In this document: positions 26,405 to 41,924 of the stretch, piece after piece
Layout of the letters: each line of letters begins with the position of its first letter
How positions within the stretch are numbered: position 1 is the stretch's first letter
Source: Diplonema papillatum
Lineage: Eukaryota; Euglenozoa; Diplonemea; Diplonemida; Diplonemidae
Assembly (NCBI GenBank): GCA_030068145.1
Contig: JAPJBO010000104.1
Span: 186,001 to 250,000, forward strand
Length of the DNA: 64,000 bases
Reading direction: 5' to 3'
Translations under genes and position numbers: made by a program
Notes under the pieces: generated by a model
Databases searched by the model: none
What the model was told of the DNA's origin: nothing
What the model saw: only the letters and a program-made list of their open reading frames with translations

Positions 26405-26766
26405 CTTACAGCAATGGCCGCACTGTAGCACTTGACACCATTCCGTGTCGCTTCTTCTGTGAAGACGTCAGCACGTATGGATGCAGAGGTATTCGCAGCT
26501 GTACCGTAACACACTGCCCTGACATAAAAACCTACTTCTGTTTTGCAGTCATGACCGGGTTTCAGACACTTGTGTTGAGTGACACGTTCAGATCGCGTGG
26601 ATAGACTAAGCTAGTCTTCGGCGCACCCAATGGTAGCACGTTTGACTGCAGCAGCATTCGCACGGTACACACCGCCCTTGCACGAGAGCTCCACTCCGTC
26701 CTGCAAGCATGACTGGTCTTTGGACACTTGTGTTAACAACACGTCCAAGTCACGCAGTTAGACTTT
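26405..26766 (+). repeat. Two diverged tandem units at a gene 3' end
   Basis: The segment at 26549-26608 (CATGACCGGGTTTCAGACAC, then TTGTGTTGAGTGACACG) is repeated at 26707-26766 (CATGACTGGTCTTTGGACAC, then TTGTGTTAACAACACG). The offset is 158 bases. Flanking CAATGG...GTAGCAC blocks also recur, less regularly. The second unit overlaps the last codons of the 1688-residue protein gene. Confidence 0.5.
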
Positions 26767-29700
26767 GCCCCATCCGCAAGACTCCTTGCAACGCTGCGCG
26801 CGCATGCTCATTGAAAGCAGTGACAGTGCGGGGAGCTTCAGCCTGGACGTCTACCCGGGGCCTCTCCCGCGCTGCATCGAAATTCTTAGCCTTCGCGATG
26901 CTGGACACGGTGGGTGCCGCGGGCCCCCTTCTGTGGCCGACCGACTTCTGGCTCGCCCTGGGCCGCGAGAGCCGCTGCCTCTTCGGCGACACGGACGACG
27001 GCCGGAACGGCGGCTTGTCTTCCTGCGGCGGACTCGACGAGACGGGCCACGCATTCGTGATTTCGAACACCTTCGTCCTCCTCTGCTTCGCGAGCGAGCT
27101 GGCCGTGGAGACAGCGGCGCAGCTGGGAGGCCCGGTGAGCCACATTTTCGCTTCGGACCGCGTCGAGCTGATCGAGCGGTGGCTGAGGGCGGGCGAAGGG
27201 GAGCGGGAGTGCCCGCCGTTATTGCTGGACCCCCGGCTGCCCGCCCGGCGGCTCCTCCGCCGACTGGCAACCGTCGACCTGCCGAAGGCGGCGGGTTCCT
27301 GCACGGACACTTTGCTGCCCCGCCGGGACCGACGTGCCGGCGCGCCGTCGGAGCTGGGCCGGTTGTGCACACCGCGGGTGGGCCGCGCTTTCCCTTCGGC
27401 TTCCCCCGCGCGATCAACCGCAACCGACCCTTTCCTCGCCTCCGCCGACGTGCTGTGCCGCTCCCTGGCCAGCGTCGCGCTGCGGGCCGCCGCGGCGCCC
27501 GCTTTAACGGAAGACCCGCGTCGGCTTCCCTGCCCCTCCTCCGCTGCGCGGTGCTGCCGCATCGTGGCCGACGGGGCGCCAGCCGACTCGACTCTGTGCG
27601 CGGGAAACCCCAGGCGGTGGTTGTCCTCCCCTGCGCCGTGTGCCGCGGGTGTGCGCGCGTGGGTGTGTGTACCGTGCGACGGGTTTGCGTCGGAGAAAGT
27701 GTCGCGGTTGTTCAGCGGGGCTGTCGCAGTGCGTGTCAGCAACCCCGGCACGCCGCTTCTCCTGTCGTCGGGTTCGTTAAACTCGCCGGCGTGCGACGGA
27801 GACGGGCGTTCGTCGTCGAAAGGATCCCACCTCCTCCCGCCCTGTTCGTGGCCCTCGCGGGTGTCGCCTGCGACCGGCGCGTGTGTCTCTTCGGCGCCTT
27901 CTTCAAACGAATAGTCACCCCCGTGTCCCCAGTTGCGAAACCCGTCGTCCGCTGCCTCGACACCCACATTCCCGGCCGGTAATTCCGAGCTTCGACCCCC
28001 GACTTGCTTTGTAGGTGCGTCGTGCGTGTGCCTGACGGCGTCCGGGCCGTCATACCGCGTGGTGACTACCACTCGGTCGACTCGGCAGCCTTCGAGCTGC
28101 TGCATGACGGCTGGTGCGTGGTTGGGAGTGCTAGCCGCAGCTGCTGCTTGGTGCAAGTTTTGAGGTGTTGAAGAGTACTGGTGCTGGGGCTCCACGGGAG
28201 GGTGAATCCCGCCCATGTTGGCGTGGGGCTGGTGCTCGGGTGGCCACGCGCTGGCGACGCTAGGCGTGCGGTCCCGAGGAGAGCTGGACAAGGAGAACGG
28301 CTGAGCCTGCCGCGGAAGGACGAGGATGCGGCGGGGCGGTTGCTGCTGTGGGTTCACGCTCGGCGTGCGCAGCGGCGCTTGGCTGGGCTTCGGCAAAGGG
28401 GAGCCCGTGGCGTCGCTGCCGGAAGGGTCGCTCTCATAAAAATGCGGGACCCCGGCCCTCCTCGCGAGGGTATCAACGCACGATGCCATGGACGCCAACA
28501 CCCTGTCCAGCCGGTGCTCGTCGCCCTGCTGCACTCTCGCAGCCTCCGCATCCGCCACCGGCTCCCTCCACAGCGACGACGCAGAATCCTCGTCGTCTGC
28601 TTGGGTCCAAGAAGGAAGGGCGGCGAGTAATCGCGCTGCGTTGCTCGAGGGACTGTGCGCAGCCTTGCTGCCCCTGGTGATGAACACGTCGGCGTTCGGT
28701 CCGCTCGCGTTGCCCCGTTGGTCTCGGCGGGTCTCGGGGGACGGAGCGAGCGAGGTGTGCGGGCGGTGGCTTCTCGGGTGCGCGGTGAAGTGAGACGCGG
28801 GAGACTGTGGGGTGGTTGAACGGGACGGAGGTGATGTGTGGTGGTGCGTCCGCGGTCCTGGATTTCGGGGGTCTTTGATGCGAGGCGCTGCCGTTGGCGA
28901 CGTGCTTTCATGAGCAGAGAAACTCGTATGCCCTGCGTTCGGCGAATGCGCGGCGGCCGACTGCGTTTTGTGGTGGGCAACAAGGTGCAAACGGGTATTC
29001 GCGGTTTCAGCGTTCTGCACATCGGAGAAGAAATGAGCGGGGTTCGCCGTGCGGTACGTGACGGACTGATACGATTCAATCTGTTCCGTAGAGGCGATAC
29101 TTTGGCGGGTGTTCGGAGATCGTGAATTCGAGGTGCGGATAGAATAGCGATCTTCGTGTGCTACTGTGTGCAGGTCCACTACGCGTTGCGAAGAACCGGC
29201 GGGAGACGCCGTATTGTGTGTGTAAGGGAAACTGCCCTGCTCGATGATTCGGTGAGCGTCTGGAGATTGGGGGTGTGCGGCTGTGTGGTGGACGGCGGTG
29301 TGCCGAGGGTCCTTAATGCGGTGGGAGCGGCCAGAAGGCGAGGCGACCGCCTGCCCCCAGAGATTCGCGCGGGACGCTTTTTCGCGCATCTGCGTCTCCA
29401 TGCGGTCTCGGTCCTCCTCGAGCTGCAGCAGCTCGGCCTGCACCCGGCGGGTGCTGGCGGCCTCGCGGGCGAGCGACCGCTCGATGGACGCGAACCGGCC
29501 GCCTGCTGCGCCGCCGCTGTCGCGGCTTCCCGCGCGTGGTCCGCGTGGCTCAGTACCCGGCCCCGCGAGGCACTTCGCTCCAGCAGCTTGCCGTGTCGTC
29601 TCGCGGCTGTGTTCATCCATAGCATCCACTGGGGGGGAGGAAACCGTCGCCGGGTGGCCTCGCCCAGGAGCCGGCACGGTGGCCTCCCACTCTTCCGGGC

Positions 29701-31816
29701 CGGGGTCTGCCGGCGGCGCGTCCGCTCGGATCCGCGATACCAGGTTCAGGAGATAGCTGGGCTCGCCCGAAAGCCGGCTGCTTTCCAAGTCAGAACCGGG
29801 GGCGGAGGGAGGAGTGTGCACCATGACGTCATCCGCGGCCTCCGTTGCTGAATCCTCGTCCGCCTGCGCTGGTGGAATGGACGCGGGCGTGGGGTTCTGG
29901 AGTGTGCAATCAGCTGAAGTCGCTGCTGGTGGCAAAATCGCCCGTTCGAATTCATTCCGTTCGTCGCCGCGTCCTCGCGACAAGCGACTGGCGCCCAGTT
30001 CTCCTGAAAAGGCCGGTGGCTCGGCTTCGCCTGCGTTTGGCAGATTAACACTGATGCTCGGATTGTGCGGTTGCGAGAACTGGTCGACGTGCGCTTCTGA
30101 ACGGGATGACGTCTGGCCCTGATCTTCCACGTGGGACATATCAAGGCTTGTCTCCGAGCGCTCGTGCTGCCATGCGGGGCCCCGTAAGTGCTGGTCGGTG
30201 TTCGGGTGTGTATGCGACGGAGACGACGGGTTCTGATGGGCGGTGAACCGACCGTCGCCGTCGTTTGACAACGCGGCGCTCGCTTCCGAGCACTCGTCCT
30301 GCCCTCGACGGCCCCGCAGGTATTGATCGGCGTGGGAGGGTAACCGCCCTTCGTCGTCTGCTGTTGGCAAAATCGTGCACGGTACCGGGCCTTGGTGCTC
30401 GACGCTGCCGGTCCACAGGACAGCGGCGGTGCTGGTTGACACGGCTGCTTCTATACTGAACGAGCGATCCGGCGAGGTTCCGTGCGCGTTCAGAAAGCCG
30501 GGTCTCATGAAGCCGTCGAGCATGCTTTGCACCGCTTCTTGTGCGGTCCCGCGCCCTCTTAAGCCCTCGAACGCGCTTTGGACTGCCTCTTGGGCGGACT
30601 CGGGCTTTGAGAACCCGCCAACTCCGCTTTTCGGGCCTGCTCCCGGCTCGGTGTCAGACTTCGCGACATTGCCGAGTACGCTTTCGCTGGATGGCCCTAA
30701 GAAGTCCTCGAGCACGCATCGGACCGAGGCGGGCTTGCCGTGCCTTCCAGCACCGTCGCCGGATGCGCGGCTGTCGGGAGACACCGTGGGCCGTGGGGAC
30801 TCTCGCAGTTCAGCATCGCCAGTTTTGTCGCCCGGCGAGCCGGACACGTGAGAGGAGCCAGTCACACATTGTATCTGCAAAACCGAGCTGAGCGCCGAGC
30901 TGTACACCGCCGAACGAGGCACGGCCTCAGAATCCAACGCCGAACCGAAACCGACGCTCGATGCACTGTTCTGCTGGCGGGGTGCCGAGGAGCCGTCGTT
31001 TAACGCAGACGCCGACTCTGCTCGCGACCCTTCGCCGTCTGTTCGGAAAGAGAGGTCCTCCTGCGACGCTGCGTGCTCCGGCGCTTCGTAGGTGGTCCGC
31101 CGTTTTCCGGCGTGATCTGCGGCGAAGAGACGCGTGCCGCTGGCAGAAGGACTGAGCTGTTCCGTCGGTCGCGCGGGATTTCCGCTGCGTTTGAGTCTGT
31201 GGTGAAGCGGGGACGGAACGGTGGAGTCGCTGAGGAGATCTGACGGGGACAGGTTGGGGTTCGAGCTGAAGCAGGAAGGGGAGCAGTGCGGTTCGTGGGC
31301 AGGCGTCGTGCCGCCGACGCCGGAGTCCGACGAGGCGATGCTGCTGCGCGTGGGGTTGTAGTGCGTGGTTCCGGGCGTTGGGTGCGAATGGGAAGACCGC
31401 GCGGCTTGCGAGGCGCGCTCAAATATGCTGTTGCACAGCGCTTGGGCGCGTTCGGATGCCGTCAAGTGCGAAGAGGGCGAAGACCGGGGGTGCAGGTGGG
31501 CTGGGGAACCCGAGCCTGCCGACAGAGAGTGCAGCGACGTCGCTGGCTCGGCGCTGCTGATGTCGAGCGACTCGGAGTCGGACAGCCCGGCGCCCGGGTG
31601 GCTGCCTGCCTCCGCCTGCAGCCGGCGGTCCCCGGCGCGGAGCGACCAGTCGCTGGCGCAGTCGCCGACCCAGCGGGCCACGCTGCTGTTTACGCTGCTC
31701 CGGATGAGCTCTCCTTCCAGGTCTTCGAACCCCTTCCTGCGCTCCGCGATGCGGCGGATGACCCGCAGCGTGTCCGGGTACTTCCAGTTCTTCGACTCAT
31801 CGTCGACGCTCGCCAT
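26750..31816 (-). CDS. Very large, mostly disordered Ser/Pro/His-rich protein
   Basis: A single open frame of 1688 residues from the ATG at 31816 (MASVDDESKNWKYP). The first 50 or so residues look helical (TLRVIRRIAERRKGFEDLEG). Most of the rest is low-complexity Ser, Pro, His, Gly and Asp. Short internal repeats are visible: AQEAVQS twice within about 25 residues near the first quarter, and DQ[YH]LRG...ERSE-type units soon after. A short coiled coil (AELLQLEEDRDRMETQMREK) lies in the middle. The C-terminal 300 residues are basic (RRRSRRAGSRG). No enzyme or known domain is recognised. A scaffold or nucleic-acid-associated role would be a guess. The final codons overlap a tandem repeat, so the true end could differ if an intron is hidden there. 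Confidence 0.7.
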   Translation of the reverse strand: MASVDDESKNWKYPDTLRVIRRIAERRKGFEDLEGELIRSSVNSSVARWVGDCASDWSLRAGDRRLQAEAGSHPGAGLSDSESLDISSAEPATSLHSLSAGSGSPAHLHPRSSPSSHLTASERAQALCNSIFERASQAARSSHSHPTPGTTHYNPTRSSIASSDSGVGGTTPAHEPHCSPSCFSSNPNLSPSDLLSDSTVPSPLHHRLKRSGNPARPTEQLSPSASGTRLFAADHAGKRRTTYEAPEHAASQEDLSFRTDGEGSRAESASALNDGSSAPRQQNSASSVGFGSALDSEAVPRSAVYSSALSSVLQIQCVTGSSHVSGSPGDKTGDAELRESPRPTVSPDSRASGDGAGRHGKPASVRCVLEDFLGPSSESVLGNVAKSDTEPGAGPKSGVGGFSKPESAQEAVQSAFEGLRGRGTAQEAVQSMLDGFMRPGFLNAHGTSPDRSFSIEAAVSTSTAAVLWTGSVEHQGPVPCTILPTADDEGRLPSHADQYLRGRRGQDECSEASAALSNDGDGRFTAHQNPSSPSHTHPNTDQHLRGPAWQHERSETSLDMSHVEDQGQTSSRSEAHVDQFSQPHNPSISVNLPNAGEAEPPAFSGELGASRLSRGRGDERNEFERAILPPAATSADCTLQNPTPASIPPAQADEDSATEAADDVMVHTPPSAPGSDLESSRLSGEPSYLLNLVSRIRADAPPADPGPEEWEATVPAPGRGHPATVSSPPVDAMDEHSRETTRQAAGAKCLAGPGTEPRGPRAGSRDSGGAAGGRFASIERSLAREAASTRRVQAELLQLEEDRDRMETQMREKASRANLWGQAVASPSGRSHRIKDPRHTAVHHTAAHPQSPDAHRIIEQGSFPYTHNTASPAGSSQRVVDLHTVAHEDRYSIRTSNSRSPNTRQSIASTEQIESYQSVTYRTANPAHFFSDVQNAETANTRLHLVAHHKTQSAAAHSPNAGHTSFSAHESTSPTAAPRIKDPRNPGPRTHHHTSPPSRSTTPQSPASHFTAHPRSHRPHTSLAPSPETRRDQRGNASGPNADVFITRGSKAAHSPSSNAARLLAALPSWTQADDEDSASSLWREPVADAEAARVQQGDEHRLDRVLASMASCVDTLARRAGVPHFYESDPSGSDATGSPLPKPSQAPLRTPSVNPQQQPPRRILVLPRQAQPFSLSSSPRDRTPSVASAWPPEHQPHANMGGIHPPVEPQHQYSSTPQNLHQAAAAASTPNHAPAVMQQLEGCRVDRVVVTTRYDGPDAVRHTHDAPTKQVGGRSSELPAGNVGVEAADDGFRNWGHGGDYSFEEGAEETHAPVAGDTREGHEQGGRRWDPFDDERPSPSHAGEFNEPDDRRSGVPGLLTRTATAPLNNRDTFSDANPSHGTHTHARTPAAHGAGEDNHRLGFPAHRVESAGAPSATMRQHRAAEEGQGSRRGSSVKAGAAAARSATLARERHSTSAEARKGSVAVDRAGEAEGKARPTRGVHNRPSSDGAPARRSRRGSKVSVQEPAAFGRSTVASRRRSRRAGSRGSSNNGGHSRSPSPALSHRSISSTRSEAKMWLTGPPSCAAVSTASSLAKQRRTKVFEITNAWPVSSSPPQEDKPPFRPSSVSPKRQRLSRPRASQKSVGHRRGPAAPTVSSIAKAKNFDAARERPRVDVQAEAPRTVTAFNEHARAALQGVLRMGQSLTA

Positions 31817-32986
31817 TCGGAGACGAGCCCACACGCCGAGGCGTTGTTTTCTCTATGTGTAGACTGCGTGTGAGTGTCATGTGTTGATTGCGGAGGAATG
31901 GCAGTGCTTTCTAAACCATCTTTGCGGCTCACTTCTCTCCGTACAGCTACGGAGGCATGATGACAAATGCGTTTGCTGCCAAAAATTGGCATGGCGCTTT
32001 CCTTTGTGTATGTAAGTTTCATGTAGTACGCTGCCCACAACTATGCCCACAACTACTTTTTCAATACATTGTAGGGCAAGCCGCAAAAACGTGACTCCCG
32101 TCCTCGGCCAGTCAGCGCGAATTTATCAACGCGTGCGTACGAACCTGGCGGACGCACACGTCGCGAGAGGTTCCGCTTGTGGAAGCATTTGCTTGATTGG
32201 AGAGAGAGGACGAAGGTCGTGGACACGAAAGGAAAGGCGCCTCGTTTAGTTTGTGCGCACCGGTCGATCAAACAATGTGCCCACTTGACTTTTTCCCGGC
32301 GTTCCCTTTATCAAGTTATTCGCAGTGCGTCGTAGGGCGGCCCGCAAGATTTGTTAGTACTGAAAAGCAAACAACGTTGAAGGTACTCTAGCAAAGCAGT
32401 ACGGCCCGGTACTCTCCCGGCGCGGACGAAGTGCAAAACAGACAGTCTAGTAGAAAGCCAGAGCCCCTCCGACAACGTCATCATTACTTTCTCATGCTCT
32501 CAAGAAGCTGAACAATGAAGAAAAAGAAGCTGGGAAAGCGGGGCAGCGCAGTAAGTACACGCTCCCTCCCTCCTCACCTCTCTGTCTTATCTCATGCCTA
32601 GCGAGCAGCCACTCTTCTGTCGCAACTCCGCAAGGAACCTGCAGAAACTTAGTTGCCCAATGTTTCGCAGTACTGGTCAAACGATCGTCATTCACCAAGA
32701 CAAGGCGGAACGGAGGAGGCTAGGAGCTTAATATAAGCAGGCATTGAGAGAACTCAGAACAGATCGTGTCGAAGAGACCACGTTTCCACACCGAGTTTTG
32801 TTCCCGTGCAGGAAGACGTTATTTTTACTCTTCACAACTAACGAAGGCCAAACGAGCTGAGTTGTTGATAATATTGACGGAACCAAATTCCTGGACTGCT
32901 TGGCTGCTGGCCCGGAGAAATCCGTAAAAAGGACAGCCAGTGATAAGTTGGTGGCAAGTCTCGCATGCTCGTCTGCTTCCCGAACC
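31817..32986. other. Intergenic spacer, nothing recognised
   Basis: No repeat shared with other parts of the window and no convincing reading frame. Confidence 0.45.
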
Positions 32987-35900
32987 TCACGACCCGATGT
33001 GCTCGCCTCCGTGAACTTCATCGAGCTCGGTGATACGGGCACGGCCGCCGTATACGGATTTTTGCCGTTTGTACATGATCCACATGGCCACAATGACAAC
33101 ATGCAGGACGAGCAGGTACGTGGCTAAGGCTATGATTTGAACGGTCCTAAACTGGTCGGTGGCCCCGCTGTCCTCCGGACACAACGCAGCCGGCGGCGAA
33201 GCGAGCGCAACGTCAGAGACAAGCCCGCCGTGGGCAGCAGCCAGCATGTGCAGGAAGATGTTGGTGTTCTCTTGCCCGCCGTTGAACCGATGGCAGTGGG
33301 GCCCCTTGGCGTACACCATGACATCGGCCGCCGTGTGCACGGAGGACGTCGAGGCTTCTTGGTGCTCCGTCCTGCCCAGGTTGTCTGCCAGCTCGATGCC
33401 GCGGAGCGTTGCCTTCAAATCATCCCGGCGCACCCAGTCCGACGGCATTTCCTTCGACTTGAAGTCCTCCCTGTACGAAGGGTGGTTGTTGTTCACCGCC
33501 GCGAACGTGTTCTTGGCGGTCGCCCAGTTGTCGACGACGTACTCTTCGTCCGCCTCCCAGTCCGGCCACATCGCTTCGCCGTACATGTGGATCGCCTGGT
33601 TGTGGTCGGCAACGTCGGTGTCGACGGTACCGTACACGTCGAATCCCCCAGTGGAGTGGTCGCTGGTGACCACCACCAGCGTCTCGTCCGCGAGGCCGAG
33701 CTCCTTTAACTTGGCGTCCAGCGCCGCAATGGTGGCCTGCAGCTCCAGCGCGTCTCCGAGCATCCGCGTGAAGTCGTTAGCGTGGGCCATCTTGTCGACG
33801 GACGCGGCTTCGACCACGAGGTAGAATCGGCCATCCCGGCTGGCCGCCAGCTTCTTCAAGGCGAACAGCGCCATTTCCTTCAACCCCGGCTCCCGGTTGG
33901 CGGGGTCCGCCGCTCTGTCCTTGAACACGGCGAGGTGATGGTCCGCGAATGTGCCCAGGTACTTTTCCCCGGGTTTTTGCGGCGCGCCGGCCGCGCCGTG
34001 CAGCTCGTCTTTCGTGCGCAGCGTCGTGTACCCGGCGGCGGCGAAGAGATCTCGCAAGTCGGCGGATTCGTTGAAGAGGTCCGCCCCGCCTCCCAAGAGA
34101 ACGTCCGGGGCCAGGGCGAGGGCCTGCCGGATGATGATGTCCGACTCGTCTCTATCCGAGCAGTGCGCCCACACACCGGCGGGCGTCGCGTCGGCGAGGG
34201 ATGCGGTGGTGACGACGCCGACCCGCATGCCGAGGCTTCGCTTCATGTACTCGGCGTACGTTTCAACCCTTGGGTTGTTGTCGCAGATTTCGGGGTCCGC
34301 GTCCGGGTAGACACCCGACGCGCCGTTGACGGTCTTCCGCCCGGTGTTCAACGCCGACGCGGAAGCCGCGCTGTCGGTCACGATGCTCTCCAAACTGTGC
34401 GTGAACACCGTCCCCGCCACGGGGAAGTCGTCCGTCGGCAGCCGCAGCCTTTCGCGGCCGCGCAGCAGCCGGGTCGCCGTCAGCATCGGCAGCGACATTC
34501 CGTCGCCGATGATCAACACCACATTCCTTGCTCTCGGATCGCCGCTCTGCGCCTCTGCATCGTTTTCAGCGCGCCCCTTCAAGCCGACCTGCCTGTACTC
34601 CACCGGACGCGAGCGGGTGCCGGAGATGACGGAGAACTCGAACACCGCGGGTCCATCGGCGGACGGCGGCGGCAGCTGGCAGCTCCCGTAGACGAACTGC
34701 ACGAGGCCGTTTTTCGTCGAAACGCGCGGCTCGGCGAATGAGTTCGGGCACAGGGCCCGCAGCGCGGACGCGGGGCTTACGGCGGTCACCCCGGGCTCCG
34801 CCCCCGGCAAGTCGGCGGGGACGAAGAACGCGAGGTCGAACAGCAAGCCGGACGCCATCGCCTCGCCCGTGGGGGGGTACACGGTGATGTCCGATCGTGA
34901 CGGGAGGTAGCTTCGCTGCGTGACCCACCGCGCGGCCAATGGGTCGGCGGCGAGGGCGTCTCGCAGGGGGGCCCGCAGCGTGCCGTTGCTCGGCGCCGCC
35001 GGCACCGCGAGAAGCCGGCAGAAGAGCGAATACAAGTTGACGTTTTCGAACGGCGCCGCGAGGGTCACGTTCCGCCGGAAGGCCGGGCCTTCGGCCGCGA
35101 AGACCGCGCGCATGGATGGGTGCAGGTTGTCGTAGCCGTGGTTGCCGCAGCAGTACGGGGTTTCCGCCTCGGTCGCGGTGAGCGACCAGCCGGCGTCCGC
35201 GATCGCCACCACGTCGCCCGTCCGGACCGTGTTTTTGACGTGATACCGCTCGGGGATCTCGTCCCGCCGGTAGAACGCGACGTGCTGCCTCGCCCGCCTC
35301 GCGTTGTCCGAGTCCCCTTCCAGCCCCGCGGCTATGCCTCGCATCACGTCGTCGACGGACGTGGGCGCTCCCTTCCGCAGGAACATGTTCAAATACGGGT
35401 TGTGCTCCGCGACGATGACCTGCGTGCCGTCTGTTATGATGGGGATGAATTCGTCGAGGAAAACGCGTCTGTCGGGCGTGACGGCGGCATGCCCGTGGTC
35501 GGAAACGACGACCAGGTTGCCGGGTTGTTTGAATTCGGCCTCGTAGTCCTTCAGCATCGACCGGATCAACCCGAGTGCGGCGTCGATGTCGCGCATGTTT
35601 TGTTCGGCTTGCGGTGTGTACGGCCCGTAGATGTGCTGCGCCAGGTCGGGCTGCGAGAAGTACAGTAATATGACCCTCGGCCGCTGGTCTTCGGGCAGCC
35701 ACAGCCACTCCCTTGCTTGCGCCACCCGGTCTGGGTACGACACCTTCTCGTCGTACTTCAAGTAATACGTCGGCTGCATGCCGTCGATGATGGCCTCGGT
35801 TCCAGGCCAGAACACCGCAGCTGTCTTCAAGCCGTGTTTCTGCGCGGTCACCCAGAGAGGCTCTCCTTTGAACCATTGAGTGGTGCCCGCGTGGGAGGCC

Positions 35901-36211
35901 ATGTTGAAGTGTTCGTCGAGGACGGGGTCGTAGATGCTGTTGCCGGTGATGCCGTGCGACTCTTGGTAGAGCCCGGTGGCGATCGAATGGTGGTTCGGGA
36001 ACGTTTTGGTCGCGAACGACGGGAACATGCCGGCCCCCGCCCAAACGCCTGCCTCGCGCATCGCCGCGAAGTTCTCCAACGCGGCGCCGGTTCCCTTGGC
36101 CCAAGACTCCCACATCAGCCCGTCCATAGACACGATCACCAGCGGCGCGCGAGCGCCGCTGGCCACCGAGCAGTACACCGACAACAGGCATGCGAGGGTT
36201 GCCTTCGACAT
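32987..36211 (-). CDS. Fused nucleotide pyrophosphatase/phosphodiesterase and alkaline phosphatase, membrane-anchored
   Basis: A single uninterrupted frame of 1074 residues from the ATG at 36211. Residues 1-20 are a signal peptide (MSKATLACLL...VASGA). Residues 23-390 are an ENPP-type phosphodiesterase: metal ligand D30, nucleophile T70 in TKTFPNH, N73, D189 and H193 (QPDLAQH), D238/H239 (SDHGH) and H358 (NHGYDN). Residues 400-555 are a linker of unknown fold. Residues 560-995 are an alkaline phosphatase: D570 (IIGDGM), nucleophile S614 (VTDSAAS), D674/T676 (DATP), E801, D806/H810, D851/H852 (SDHST) and H959 (VHTAADV). A transmembrane helix spans about 1023-1046, with a short basic cytoplasmic tail. 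Both metal sites look complete. Working together, the halves could cut nucleotide or lipid phosphodiesters outside the cell and then release phosphate. The substrate is not predictable here. Confidence 0.93.
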   Translation of the reverse strand: MSKATLACLLSVYCSVASGARAPLVIVSMDGLMWESWAKGTGAALENFAAMREAGVWAGAGMFPSFATKTFPNHHSIATGLYQESHGITGNSIYDPVLDEHFNMASHAGTTQWFKGEPLWVTAQKHGLKTAAVFWPGTEAIIDGMQPTYYLKYDEKVSYPDRVAQAREWLWLPEDQRPRVILLYFSQPDLAQHIYGPYTPQAEQNMRDIDAALGLIRSMLKDYEAEFKQPGNLVVVSDHGHAAVTPDRRVFLDEFIPIITDGTQVIVAEHNPYLNMFLRKGAPTSVDDVMRGIAAGLEGDSDNARRARQHVAFYRRDEIPERYHVKNTVRTGDVVAIADAGWSLTATEAETPYCCGNHGYDNLHPSMRAVFAAEGPAFRRNVTLAAPFENVNLYSLFCRLLAVPAAPSNGTLRAPLRDALAADPLAARWVTQRSYLPSRSDITVYPPTGEAMASGLLFDLAFFVPADLPGAEPGVTAVSPASALRALCPNSFAEPRVSTKNGLVQFVYGSCQLPPPSADGPAVFEFSVISGTRSRPVEYRQVGLKGRAENDAEAQSGDPRARNVVLIIGDGMSLPMLTATRLLRGRERLRLPTDDFPVAGTVFTHSLESIVTDSAASASALNTGRKTVNGASGVYPDADPEICDNNPRVETYAEYMKRSLGMRVGVVTTASLADATPAGVWAHCSDRDESDIIIRQALALAPDVLLGGGADLFNESADLRDLFAAAGYTTLRTKDELHGAAGAPQKPGEKYLGTFADHHLAVFKDRAADPANREPGLKEMALFALKKLAASRDGRFYLVVEAASVDKMAHANDFTRMLGDALELQATIAALDAKLKELGLADETLVVVTSDHSTGGFDVYGTVDTDVADHNQAIHMYGEAMWPDWEADEEYVVDNWATAKNTFAAVNNNHPSYREDFKSKEMPSDWVRRDDLKATLRGIELADNLGRTEHQEASTSSVHTAADVMVYAKGPHCHRFNGGQENTNIFLHMLAAAHGGLVSDVALASPPAALCPEDSGATDQFRTVQIIALATYLLVLHVVIVAMWIMYKRQKSVYGGRARITELDEVHGGEHIGS

Positions 36212-39795: not shown

Positions 39796-41628
39796 TCACC
39801 TCTTGGGCCGGCGCGTGACGGGGTTGTAGTGCTCGGCGAGCGCCTCCTCGCAGTACGAGAGCCAGTACTCGGCCTTCGGTTCGACCGCGTTTCCGCTCGA
39901 GTCGCGGGGCCGGATTTTGTGCATCCAGCCGCCCTTCGTCTTGCCGTTCGCGTCGTCGTCTTCGTACACGTGGCTCGTGATGACGTTGAGGAGAAGCCCG
40001 TAGCGGTCGGCCGCCGCCTGCAGCGTAATGTGGTCGCCCCACGTGTCGGTCGCGCCCATGCGCGACACGAACTCCTTGAAGGTGCAGTCGACGACGAACG
40101 CGGCGTACAGGTCCTCGTGCTTCTTCAGGTGCGCCACGACCTGCTTCCGCACCTCTTTGTGCTTGTCCACGTCGCGCAGGGCGTGCCACGCGATGCTGCG
40201 GAACTGGCAGTTCCCGTCCGCGGCGACGGGGTGCTCTATGAACCCGAACCGCCGGAGGTTCGACTCGAGCGTCGTGCGCTCGGTCACTTTTTTGGGCGCA
40301 GGCGACGACGGGCCGCCTTGCGACGCCCTGCGCGCGACGGGGATGCCCTTCGCTCCGTCGGCGGCCTGCGCCGACTGCCCGCCGCGGGGGGTGGCGAGGC
40401 TGCCGGTGGCAACGGGGGTGCGGGGAGACATCGCATCGGTGTAGCGGGGGCTCACGACCTCGCTCAGGAGTTGGGCGGGCGCCGTGCTTTGGAGCTTCGG
40501 GACGGCTTTCGACCGGACCGCCTGCTTCTGCTGGAAACGGGTGCCGGAGGAGGGGTCGGCCTGGGGTGCGGAGACGAGGGACCCGCCGCCTTCGGACGAC
40601 GCCGGCTTACTGCGGGCGCTGCTGGATGAGGTGCTTTCCCGCGGCTCGTCGTCCTTGGGGTCGACGTACACGGTGCCGTGGCCGCGGGAGTACGCGGGGC
40701 CGGCCTTCGCGCCCGGCAGCGGCGCGTCGCTCTTCTGGGCGGCGTACGACCCTCCGAGCGCAGAGTTCTCTCGGGTCGCGGCGGCGAAGGTGCCGCCAAG
40801 CCCGCGGGGCGTGCCCTGCCCGCTGCGCCGCGAGGTTTCCCGCCGGATCGGCGCGTCGTTGCTGTTCAAGCGCGGGATGTGCTGCCGCGGCGTCGACGTG
40901 CCGACCGACCCTGCCGGGGTCCCCGTCAACGGGGTTGACGTCATAGGGGACGCTGGGTTCGACCGCACGTTGCCCGACTGGTGCAGCGGGGTCGCCGTCG
41001 CGTACCCCCGCACCAACGGCGGCGGCTTCGCAAAGAACTCCGATATGTTATGCCGGATCTGAGCTGCCTCCAGCAACGACCTGAGGCCGTTGAGCACCTT
41101 ACGAGACTCAGACGTGTATGGCGTGTAGTCTTGGCGCTCCTTCGGGAGCATGACACGACTCGGCAGGTCGACGCAGCTCTGCAGCCGCGTGTCCATAGGC
41201 GTCGGCGTCTGCCACGACACGTGGCAACTGCACACGCGAGACTTGTTCCCCGAGCTGTCGCTGACCCAGACGACTCCGTTCGCCAGCATGCGCACGCTGT
41301 AGTGGCTGTCGGCCACGCTCCACTGCACTTCTCGGACGGCTTCCGCAGCTTCCACGCCCGAAAGGCTACGCTGGTGCGCGTCCAATTTTTCGACCATCAC
41401 CCCAGCACTCCCTGTGACATCCGCAAGCTGCTCTAAGGTGTGCGCCACGGCCTTCGCACTCGATAAGCAATCTGCCAGCGGAATTGAATAATCGGAGTTC
41501 GGGACGAAGAGGTGGAGCCAGTCGTCGCTGGCCCTCGTAAGCTCTGCGGTCCTGAACGACTGCCCGCGGTTCCCGTTTTCGTACACAATGCACTCGTTGC
41601 TCAGCGGCTGGCTCATGATTTTGTACAT
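39796..41628 (-). CDS. OTU-family cysteine protease with long disordered middle
   Basis: 610 residues from the ATG at 41628 (MYKIMSQP). This ATG is about 55 bases past an acceptor-like site (CATTATCAG), and the frame stays open back to it, so an upstream exon is possible. Residues 1-200 look globular and beta-rich, but I do not recognise them. Residues 200-440 are Ser/Pro/Arg-rich and disordered. Residues 451-610 are an OTU domain: catalytic D471 and C474 in ADGNCQFRSIAWHAL, and H600 in LAEHYNPV, with YWLSYCEEA before it. This is the normal D-G-N-C and H-Y-N layout, so activity is expected: removal of ubiquitin or a ubiquitin-like protein. The linkage preference is unknown. The basic C-terminus ends just after the catalytic His. 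Confidence 0.88.
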   Translation of the reverse strand: MYKIMSQPLSNECIVYENGNRGQSFRTAELTRASDDWLHLFVPNSDYSIPLADCLSSAKAVAHTLEQLADVTGSAGVMVEKLDAHQRSLSGVEAAEAVREVQWSVADSHYSVRMLANGVVWVSDSSGNKSRVCSCHVSWQTPTPMDTRLQSCVDLPSRVMLPKERQDYTPYTSESRKVLNGLRSLLEAAQIRHNISEFFAKPPPLVRGYATATPLHQSGNVRSNPASPMTSTPLTGTPAGSVGTSTPRQHIPRLNSNDAPIRRETSRRSGQGTPRGLGGTFAAATRENSALGGSYAAQKSDAPLPGAKAGPAYSRGHGTVYVDPKDDEPRESTSSSSARSKPASSEGGGSLVSAPQADPSSGTRFQQKQAVRSKAVPKLQSTAPAQLLSEVVSPRYTDAMSPRTPVATGSLATPRGGQSAQAADGAKGIPVARRASQGGPSSPAPKKVTERTTLESNLRRFGFIEHPVAADGNCQFRSIAWHALRDVDKHKEVRKQVVAHLKKHEDLYAAFVVDCTFKEFVSRMGATDTWGDHITLQAAADRYGLLLNVITSHVYEDDDANGKTKGGWMHKIRPRDSSGNAVEPKAEYWLSYCEEALAEHYNPVTRRPKR

Positions 41629-41924
41629 CGTGGTGCCCACGTTCCAAGTAAATGTCTTTCCGGTCTTCAGCTTGGTTCCACCTGATAATGTGTTGTTTTC
41701 CCGTTGCAACACGACCTTGACCAGTGGTCAGTCGTCGACCCCCTAACGGTCACCCTGCGGTTACTTAGTGCTGGATTGGCAATTGTAGTATTTCCGCGGC
41801 AACTGCAAGGTACGTACGGGTCTTTGGTAAACGTGAGCACACAGGTACAGGGTTTGCAGGCCAAACCGGGTTTTGGAAACCGGGAGGCCGGCCCTAACTA
41901 AATATCTGGTACGAACGCCGACTT

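Follow-up and report, generated by a model that had tools for sequence, protein, structure and literature searches.

A Predicted Fusion of a Nucleotide Pyrophosphatase/Phosphodiesterase with a PhoA-Type Alkaline Phosphatase in Diplonema papillatum

Introduction

The CpdB-type bifunctional 2',3'-cyclic phosphodiesterases/3'-nucleotidases convert a diester to a monoester and then to a nucleoside on one polypeptide, using a metallophosphatase fold and a 5'-nucleotidase C-terminal domain. ENPP1 and ENPP3 are type II membrane proteins that carry somatomedin-B and nuclease-like domains. Here we analyze a frame within a 64,000-nucleotide stretch of Diplonema papillatum DNA (assembly GCA_030068145.1, contig JAPJBO010000104.1, positions 186,001 to 250,000 of the forward strand; the whole stretch is referred to as the window) in which a nucleotide pyrophosphatase/phosphodiesterase (NPP) domain is joined to a PhoA-type alkaline phosphatase (ALP) domain. 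Diplonemids are described as abundant and little-known ocean flagellates (PMC10161547), and NPPs, ALPs, and other ectonucleotidases are described as working together on extracellular nucleotides in animals (PMC5309242).

Several described proteins resemble parts of this predicted fusion. Animal ENPP1 and ENPP3 share with its NPP half the domain, the metal ligands, the nucleophile, and the aromatic nucleotide pocket, whereas the fusion has a C-terminal anchor, an ALP partner, and no counterpart of ENPP1 Lys295. Secreted bacterial NPPs (Xanthomonas, Bacteroidota, and Acidobacteriota) share the whole NPP domain at up to 42% identity; they are mostly free-standing, at ~400 to 450 residues in most listed rows, with no ALP in those opened. 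Bacterial PhoA enzymes that carry an additional N-terminal domain (N-domain) have a catalytic domain that groups with that of the fusion (28 to 34% identity in the ALP alignment) but no NPP in frame, and the fusion's linker occupies the position of their N-domain. A related logic, in which a glycerophosphodiesterase-type domain is joined to an ALP-superfamily enzyme, is seen in a Bacteroidota GDPD+NPP protein (locus L119, below) and in a second protein that bears PF13653, which we take to be a GDPD-type domain. This second protein, Flavobacterium johnsoniae PhoA2, is entered as PF00245;PF13653 in Table 1 of PMC8812569. These two cases differ from the pairing of NPP with PhoA in the fusion, either in having a GDPD-type diesterase or in lacking an ALP. 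CpdB-type enzymes would work similarly to the fusion as proposed here, but their folds are unrelated.

Results

The locus is a single frame with two complete domains, their catalytic residues, and a coding linker. It runs on the minus strand from position 36211 to 32990, with the stop codon extending to 32987, and encodes 1074 residues without an internal stop (Table 1). By hmmscan, two Pfam families matched within this one frame: PF01663 at residues 24 to 361 (profile positions 1 to 342 of 342, E 5.7e-85, 286.3 bits against a cutoff of 23) and PF00245 at residues 561 to 993 (profile positions 1 to 421 of 423, E 1.1e-56, 193.1 bits against a cutoff of 24.4). The union of NPP and ALP domains in one frame, proposed in a first-pass annotation of the window, is thus borne out.

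Table 1. Features of the predicted NPP-ALP protein, in order from the N terminus; positions are those of the window
Feature	Residues	Positions	Strand	Basis
Signal-peptide-like start	1-20	36152..36211	-	Sequence judged by eye
NPP (type I phosphodiesterase/nucleotide pyrophosphatase) domain	24-412	34976..36142	-	PF01663 and ENPP1 alignment
Putative hinge between the enzymes	about 413-437	34901..34975	-	End of NPP similarity to N-domain-like start; approximate boundaries
Possible PhoA-subfamily N-terminal domain	~438-555	34547..34900	-	blastp, profile, tree, spacing
Alkaline phosphatase (PhoA-type) domain	559-993	33233..34537	-	PF00245 and 51-row alignment
Predicted C-terminal transmembrane helix, then basic KRQK stretch	about 1021-1048	33068..33151	-	Hydropathy
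Predicted short cytoplasmic tail, plus stop	about 1049-1074	32987..33067	-	Inferred from domain order

The NPP half and human ENPP1 are identical at 131 of 375 aligned residues. D30, T70, N91, and D189 are identical to ENPP1 D218, T256, N277, and D376, and H193, D238, H239, and H358 are identical to ENPP1 H380, D423, H424, and H535; T70 is the nucleophile, N91 the oxyanion residue, and the others the metal ligands. In a seven-row NPP alignment, the catalytic and ligand columns were invariant, but the T70 column had a serine in one row. A structure paper on ENPP1 names F257, L290, K295, F321, W322, P323, D326, Y340, Y371, and S377 as pocket residues (PMC7466750). The aromatic nucleotide pocket is kept in the NPP half, where F257, F321, W322, P323, Y340, and Y371 are conserved as F71, F134, W135, P136, Y153, and Y184; D326 is replaced by E139 and L290 by M104.

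ENPP1 was the nearest PDB entry to the NPP half (residues 21 to 412, E 1e-68, 235 bits). ENPP1, ENPP5, and ENPP3 headed the PDB ranking (E 3.9e-68 to about 1e-64), followed by ENPP2 (7e-59), ENPP4 (1.1e-51), ENPP7 (4.7e-43), and ENPP6 (2.2e-37). Since ENPP1, ENPP3, and ENPP5 were nearest and the aromatic pocket is retained, nucleotides are more likely substrates of the NPP half than choline compounds, both of which the first-pass annotation had entertained, and an ENPP6- or ENPP7-like choline-type NPP is disfavored. ENPP2 is a lysophospholipase D, and because its match is not much weaker than the best of the leading group (7e-59 against 3.9e-68), lipid substrates of the ENPP2 kind may also be used. 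Among bacterial NPPs, the best matches reached 279.7 bits in Bacteroidota and 252.7 bits in Acidobacteriota; these scores and the 235 bits of ENPP1 come from different tools, and the eukaryotic comparison is that with PDB alone.

In the ALP half, the nucleophile is S614, the catalytic arginine is R687, and the metal ligands are D570, E801, D806, H810, D851, H852, and H959. The first-pass annotation had named T70, S614, and these seven ligands correctly, as judged by alignment; D613, T676, and R687, together with the NPP ligands and N91 given above, are additional to it. An ALP alignment of the query with 50 of 80 fetched bacterial loci was invariant (51/51 rows) in the columns of D570, D613, S614, R687, E801, D806, H810, D851, H852, and H959, and the T676 column was conserved in 50 of the 51. 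D674 and K807 were the most frequent letters of their columns (35/51 and 30/51, respectively), a pattern that we take to fit the E. coli-like D/K magnesium-site type. The best PDB matches were the alkaline phosphatases 7kwd, 1k7h/1shn (presumably of the shrimp type), and the cold-active 3a52. Against NCBIfam NF007810, the E. coli PhoA equivalog model, the ALP half scored 110.4 bits, under the cutoff of 540, and by this measure it is a relative of E. coli PhoA and not an equivalog. An additional Sulfatase Pfam match at residues 782 to 855 (27.1 bits) was taken as superfamily cross-talk.

Several lines of evidence support the integrity of the frame between the two domains. The GC content at third codon positions (GC3) was 0.862 in the NPP part, 0.884 in the linker (residues 413 to 558), and 0.872 in the ALP part, compared with 0.47 to 0.55 in the three minus-strand frames of the flanks (~1 kb on each side); thus, the linker is read as coding. 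When all six frames of the linker were compared, the coding frame was stop-free and best matched the codon usage of both domains. A DNA search of the assembly (271 Mb in 2910 contigs) with the 3225-base coding sequence matched at one place; neither the NPP nor the ALP half recurred elsewhere as DNA.

Residues 400 to 555 had been regarded as a linker in the first-pass annotation. This stretch is indeed coding, but a bare linker is doubtful, as residues ~438 to 555 may form an N-domain. No Pfam match was found in residues ~405 to 567, even at E 1. The closest bacterial PhoAs, which are 575 to 585 residues long in five annotated examples (Deinococcus, Azospirillum, Paracoccus, Shinella, and Allomeiothermus), have an additional domain of ~95 to 110 residues ahead of the catalytic part, with an opening motif like IYPxDxAxxLxGxxFDL; its counterpart in the query is ITVYPPTGEAMASGLLFDL, starting at residue 442. 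By blastp against seven sequences, a 36-residue part of the linker was 36% identical to the N terminus of a Deinococcus ALP (E 0.002). A profile of 38 N-domains scored 3.9 bits on the linker, a value matched or exceeded by 1 of 2000 shuffles (1347 scored), and the FD-to-DG spacing of 111 residues in the query lies within the range of 63 to 130 (median, 97) shown by all but one of 38 bacterial relatives.

The catalytic domain alone was also placed in a quick-method tree of 96 rows (one minus-strand ALP frame, in L042, being dropped). The relatives in this tree were fetched with a sequence from the N-domain subfamily, and the query was the sole eukaryotic ALP. In this tree, a 40-row set with a Shimodaira-Hasegawa-like approximate likelihood ratio test (SH-aLRT) value of 99 comprised the 38 N-domain rows, the query, and L072, which was labeled as lacking the N-domain ("noN"; its match starts at model position 16, with the cut for an N-domain set at 14). 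The query fell outside the other 39 rows of this set (fork, 85). By this tree, the ALP half groups with the bacterial N-domain PhoA subfamily, and on balance residues ~438 to 555 probably represent the N-terminal domain of that subfamily. The true hinge would then be about 25 residues long, and the fusion would consist of an NPP, this hinge, a nearly complete PhoA, and a membrane anchor.

A signal peptide and a C-terminal transmembrane helix had also been proposed. The helix was supported by a Kyte-Doolittle scan, in which 19-residue windows starting at residues 1021 to 1030 exceeded 1.6 (maximum, 2.46), whereas the N terminus was signal-like as judged by eye. The signal-like start and the single C-terminal hydrophobic helix suggest that the NPP-ALP fusion is a type I surface protein, and the order of signal peptide, ectodomain, and helix would place the tail in the cytoplasm.

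No single frame with both an NPP and an ALP was found elsewhere in the sampled bacterial, plasmid, phage, and viral sequences, other eukaryotes being outside the search. Bacterial ALP relatives were the best 80 of 480, and none of the 89 ALP frames in their loci held an NPP by hidden Markov model (HMM). With the whole protein as the query, nothing was returned from genome contigs or from viral contigs (in which one NPP, L108, was present), and no place among the 228 plasmid and 11 phage records from tblastn covered 80% of it. NPP matches at E 1e-20 were present in 37 of 398 sampled genomes of Pseudomonadota (phylum of L070), 167 of 395 of Bacteroidota (phylum of L100), and 43 of 149 of Acidobacteriota (phylum of L042). 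ALP matches at E 1e-15 were present in 63 of 148 Bacteroidota, where the longest frame among the matches listed was 655 residues; an NPP+ALP fusion would need roughly 820 residues. Seven loci with frames of up to 805 residues (L109, L110, and L112 to L116) were examined with both HMMs, giving an NPP in all seven and an ALP in none. A 953-residue frame (G803) carried an NPP at its end and no ALP on reading, without the ALP HMM, and its stretch ahead of the NPP overlaps another gene in a different frame; the remaining listed NPP frames were judged by length alone. A 711-residue frame (G660) proved to be GDPD+NPP; the Bacteroidota protein in which GDPD (PF03009) is fused with NPP (PF01663), at L119:248-2371, is 707 residues long.

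In the literature on ALP or NPP combinations and on diplonemid ALPs, searched at the level of titles and abstract openings (supplements, most subscription journals, UniProt, and InterPro being outside its scope), no NPP-PhoA fusion was found. In the D. papillatum genome paper (PMC10161547), no word of the main text begins with "phosphatase". The first-pass annotation likewise knew of no characterized enzyme with this domain order. The union of NPP and ALP may be new, while each half is ordinary as a protein family.

Profile searches of the D. papillatum assembly were run exon by exon, a procedure that intron-rich genes could escape. No PF00245 match other than the fusion was found. For PF01663, the fusion scored 272.8 bits and four other places scored 25 to 54 bits. 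One of these four is a PIG-N protein and one a sulfatase; the remaining two are weak and partial, in frames without another Pfam domain. No other convincing NPP was found. PF02872, the 5'-nucleotidase C-terminal domain, had eight matches, four of them at 116 to 130 bits (contigs C191, C27, C228, and C644), and these four loci are possible nucleotide-dephosphorylating enzymes beside the fusion. Tandem units resembling PhoX (PF05787) gave 24 matches of 47.5 to 65.8 bits with ~1.7-kb spacing on contigs C1566 and C2075. The frames bearing these units are stop-free giants of 6189, 6183, and 2901 residues. One region (L121; C1566:14000-23900) is open for 3299 residues and matches itself at offsets of 572 to 582; 1000 residues of it matched PhoX at E 1.5e-35, and Tandem Repeats Finder reported no array in it (longest period, 500 bases). 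The PhoX match scores on C2075 equal those on C1566, so the one contig could be a duplicate or an allelic version of the other. A giant poly-PhoX protein would be unusual.

All five frames of at least 600 residues in the window lie on the minus strand, which fits the unidirectional arrays of euglenozoans; nearly 90% of D. papillatum contigs longer than 50 kb are described as having such gene arrays (PMC10161547). The assembly contains 300 exact copies (157 forward and 143 reverse) of a 39-base spliced leader entered as Euglenozoa 14 in a review (PMC3795323); the same pattern reversed, as a control, gave 0. A tandem array of the leader occupies C1335:1028-38617, with spacing mostly of about 1240 bases among the matches listed. 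Two further minus-strand frames of the window are a 638-residue frame at 39796-41712 with an OTU-type cysteine protease domain at its C terminus (E 1.4e-8) and a 1694-residue frame at 26750-31834 of low-complexity, Ser/Pro/His-rich appearance, with no Pfam match at E 0.001.

Discussion

We consider it likely that the gene encodes a bifunctional NPP-PhoA type I ecto-enzyme that strips nucleotides in sequence. A bifunctional ecto-enzyme was also the first-pass interpretation and is the best reading of the data, as both active sites look intact at the sequence level. The location, substrates, dimeric state, order of action, and fusion route of this protein are inferred as follows. It would sit at the plasma membrane, or in the endosomal or flagellar-pocket membrane, as a type I ecto-enzyme. 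The NPP half would release 5'-nucleotides, along with phosphate or pyrophosphate, from dinucleotides, nucleoside di- and triphosphates, and other phosphodiesters of this kind, and the PhoA half would then take off the monoester phosphate and could split pyrophosphate too. The net result would be conversion, at the cell surface, of a nucleotide to a nucleoside and inorganic phosphate, both of which the cell would take up in a scavenging role. Because PhoA-type enzymes are dimers, the fusion is probably dimeric as well, with a pair of NPP sites and a pair of ALP sites. These sites would act in sequence through proximity, not via a tunnel: of the monoester hand-over proposed in the first-pass annotation, NPP-then-ALP action is plausible, whereas direct passing from site to site is unsupported by any computed result. 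The fusion may have arisen when a PhoA, probably almost entire and belonging to the N-domain subfamily, became attached to an NPP that had lost its stop and any anchor. A more specific version, in which a dimeric and anchored NPP-PhoA, possibly diplonemid specific, is the only NPP and PhoA, channels 5'-nucleotides and pyrophosphate by proximity, and derives both of its halves from bacteria, is unlikely as a whole.

A number of observations weigh against the proposed sequential ecto-enzyme or parts of it. ENPP1 Lys295, which contacts adenine N1 (PMC7466750), is without an aligned counterpart in the NPP half, and S377 is replaced by L190. The N-domain assignment is marginal at the sequence level: it had an hhalign probability of 11%, with only the first ~22 to 27 residues aligned; the N-domain profile, run on the whole protein, scored the linker stretch at 0.1 bits, below the 1.3 bits that it gave to the ALP half by itself; and the match to a full-length bacterial ALP profile starts only at residue 548. 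The query branch is long (2.16) in the quick ALP tree. The NPP-ALP frame may be divided by a cis-intron or by proteolysis. Finally, given the 5'-nucleotidase loci and the giant tandem PhoX-like frames, the fusion is not the sole candidate ectophosphatase of the genome.

Alternatively, two independent surface enzymes may share an anchor or expression unit while acting on unrelated substrates, so that the tether brings no benefit. This reading draws on the resemblance of both domains to free-standing bacterial enzymes and on the existence of another esterase pairing, the GDPD+NPP protein of a Bacteroidota genome; however, an ALP acts on the class of compounds that an NPP releases, and the fusion holds the one PF00245 match and the one convincing NPP recovered from the D. 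papillatum genome. We regard this reading as rather unlikely. It is very unlikely that one half is inactive and serves as a binding or dimerization module: the ALP half does lie on a long branch and such domains sometimes decay, but catalytic residues are retained in both the NPP and the ALP halves. Least probable, and also very unlikely, is an assembly or annotation artifact in which two genes were misjoined or an intron occupies the linker. Introns are reported in ~41% of D. papillatum protein-coding genes, and genes lie in unidirectional arrays (PMC10161547), which would leave room for such an error. An assembly join in the linker had indeed been raised at first pass as an objection to the fusion, but the unbroken GC3, the codon usage that favors the coding frame among six, and the single DNA locus with no second copy of either half all speak otherwise, as does the N-domain belonging to the ALP half that the linker may hold.

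In sum, if the fusion is real and active, one polypeptide performs a job that is split between separate ectoenzymes in animals. The NPP-PhoA protein lends itself to asking whether nucleotides are stripped completely at a greater rate when two alkaline-phosphatase-superfamily enzymes are tethered. It is also relevant to the recycling of dissolved organic phosphorus by heterotrophic protists.

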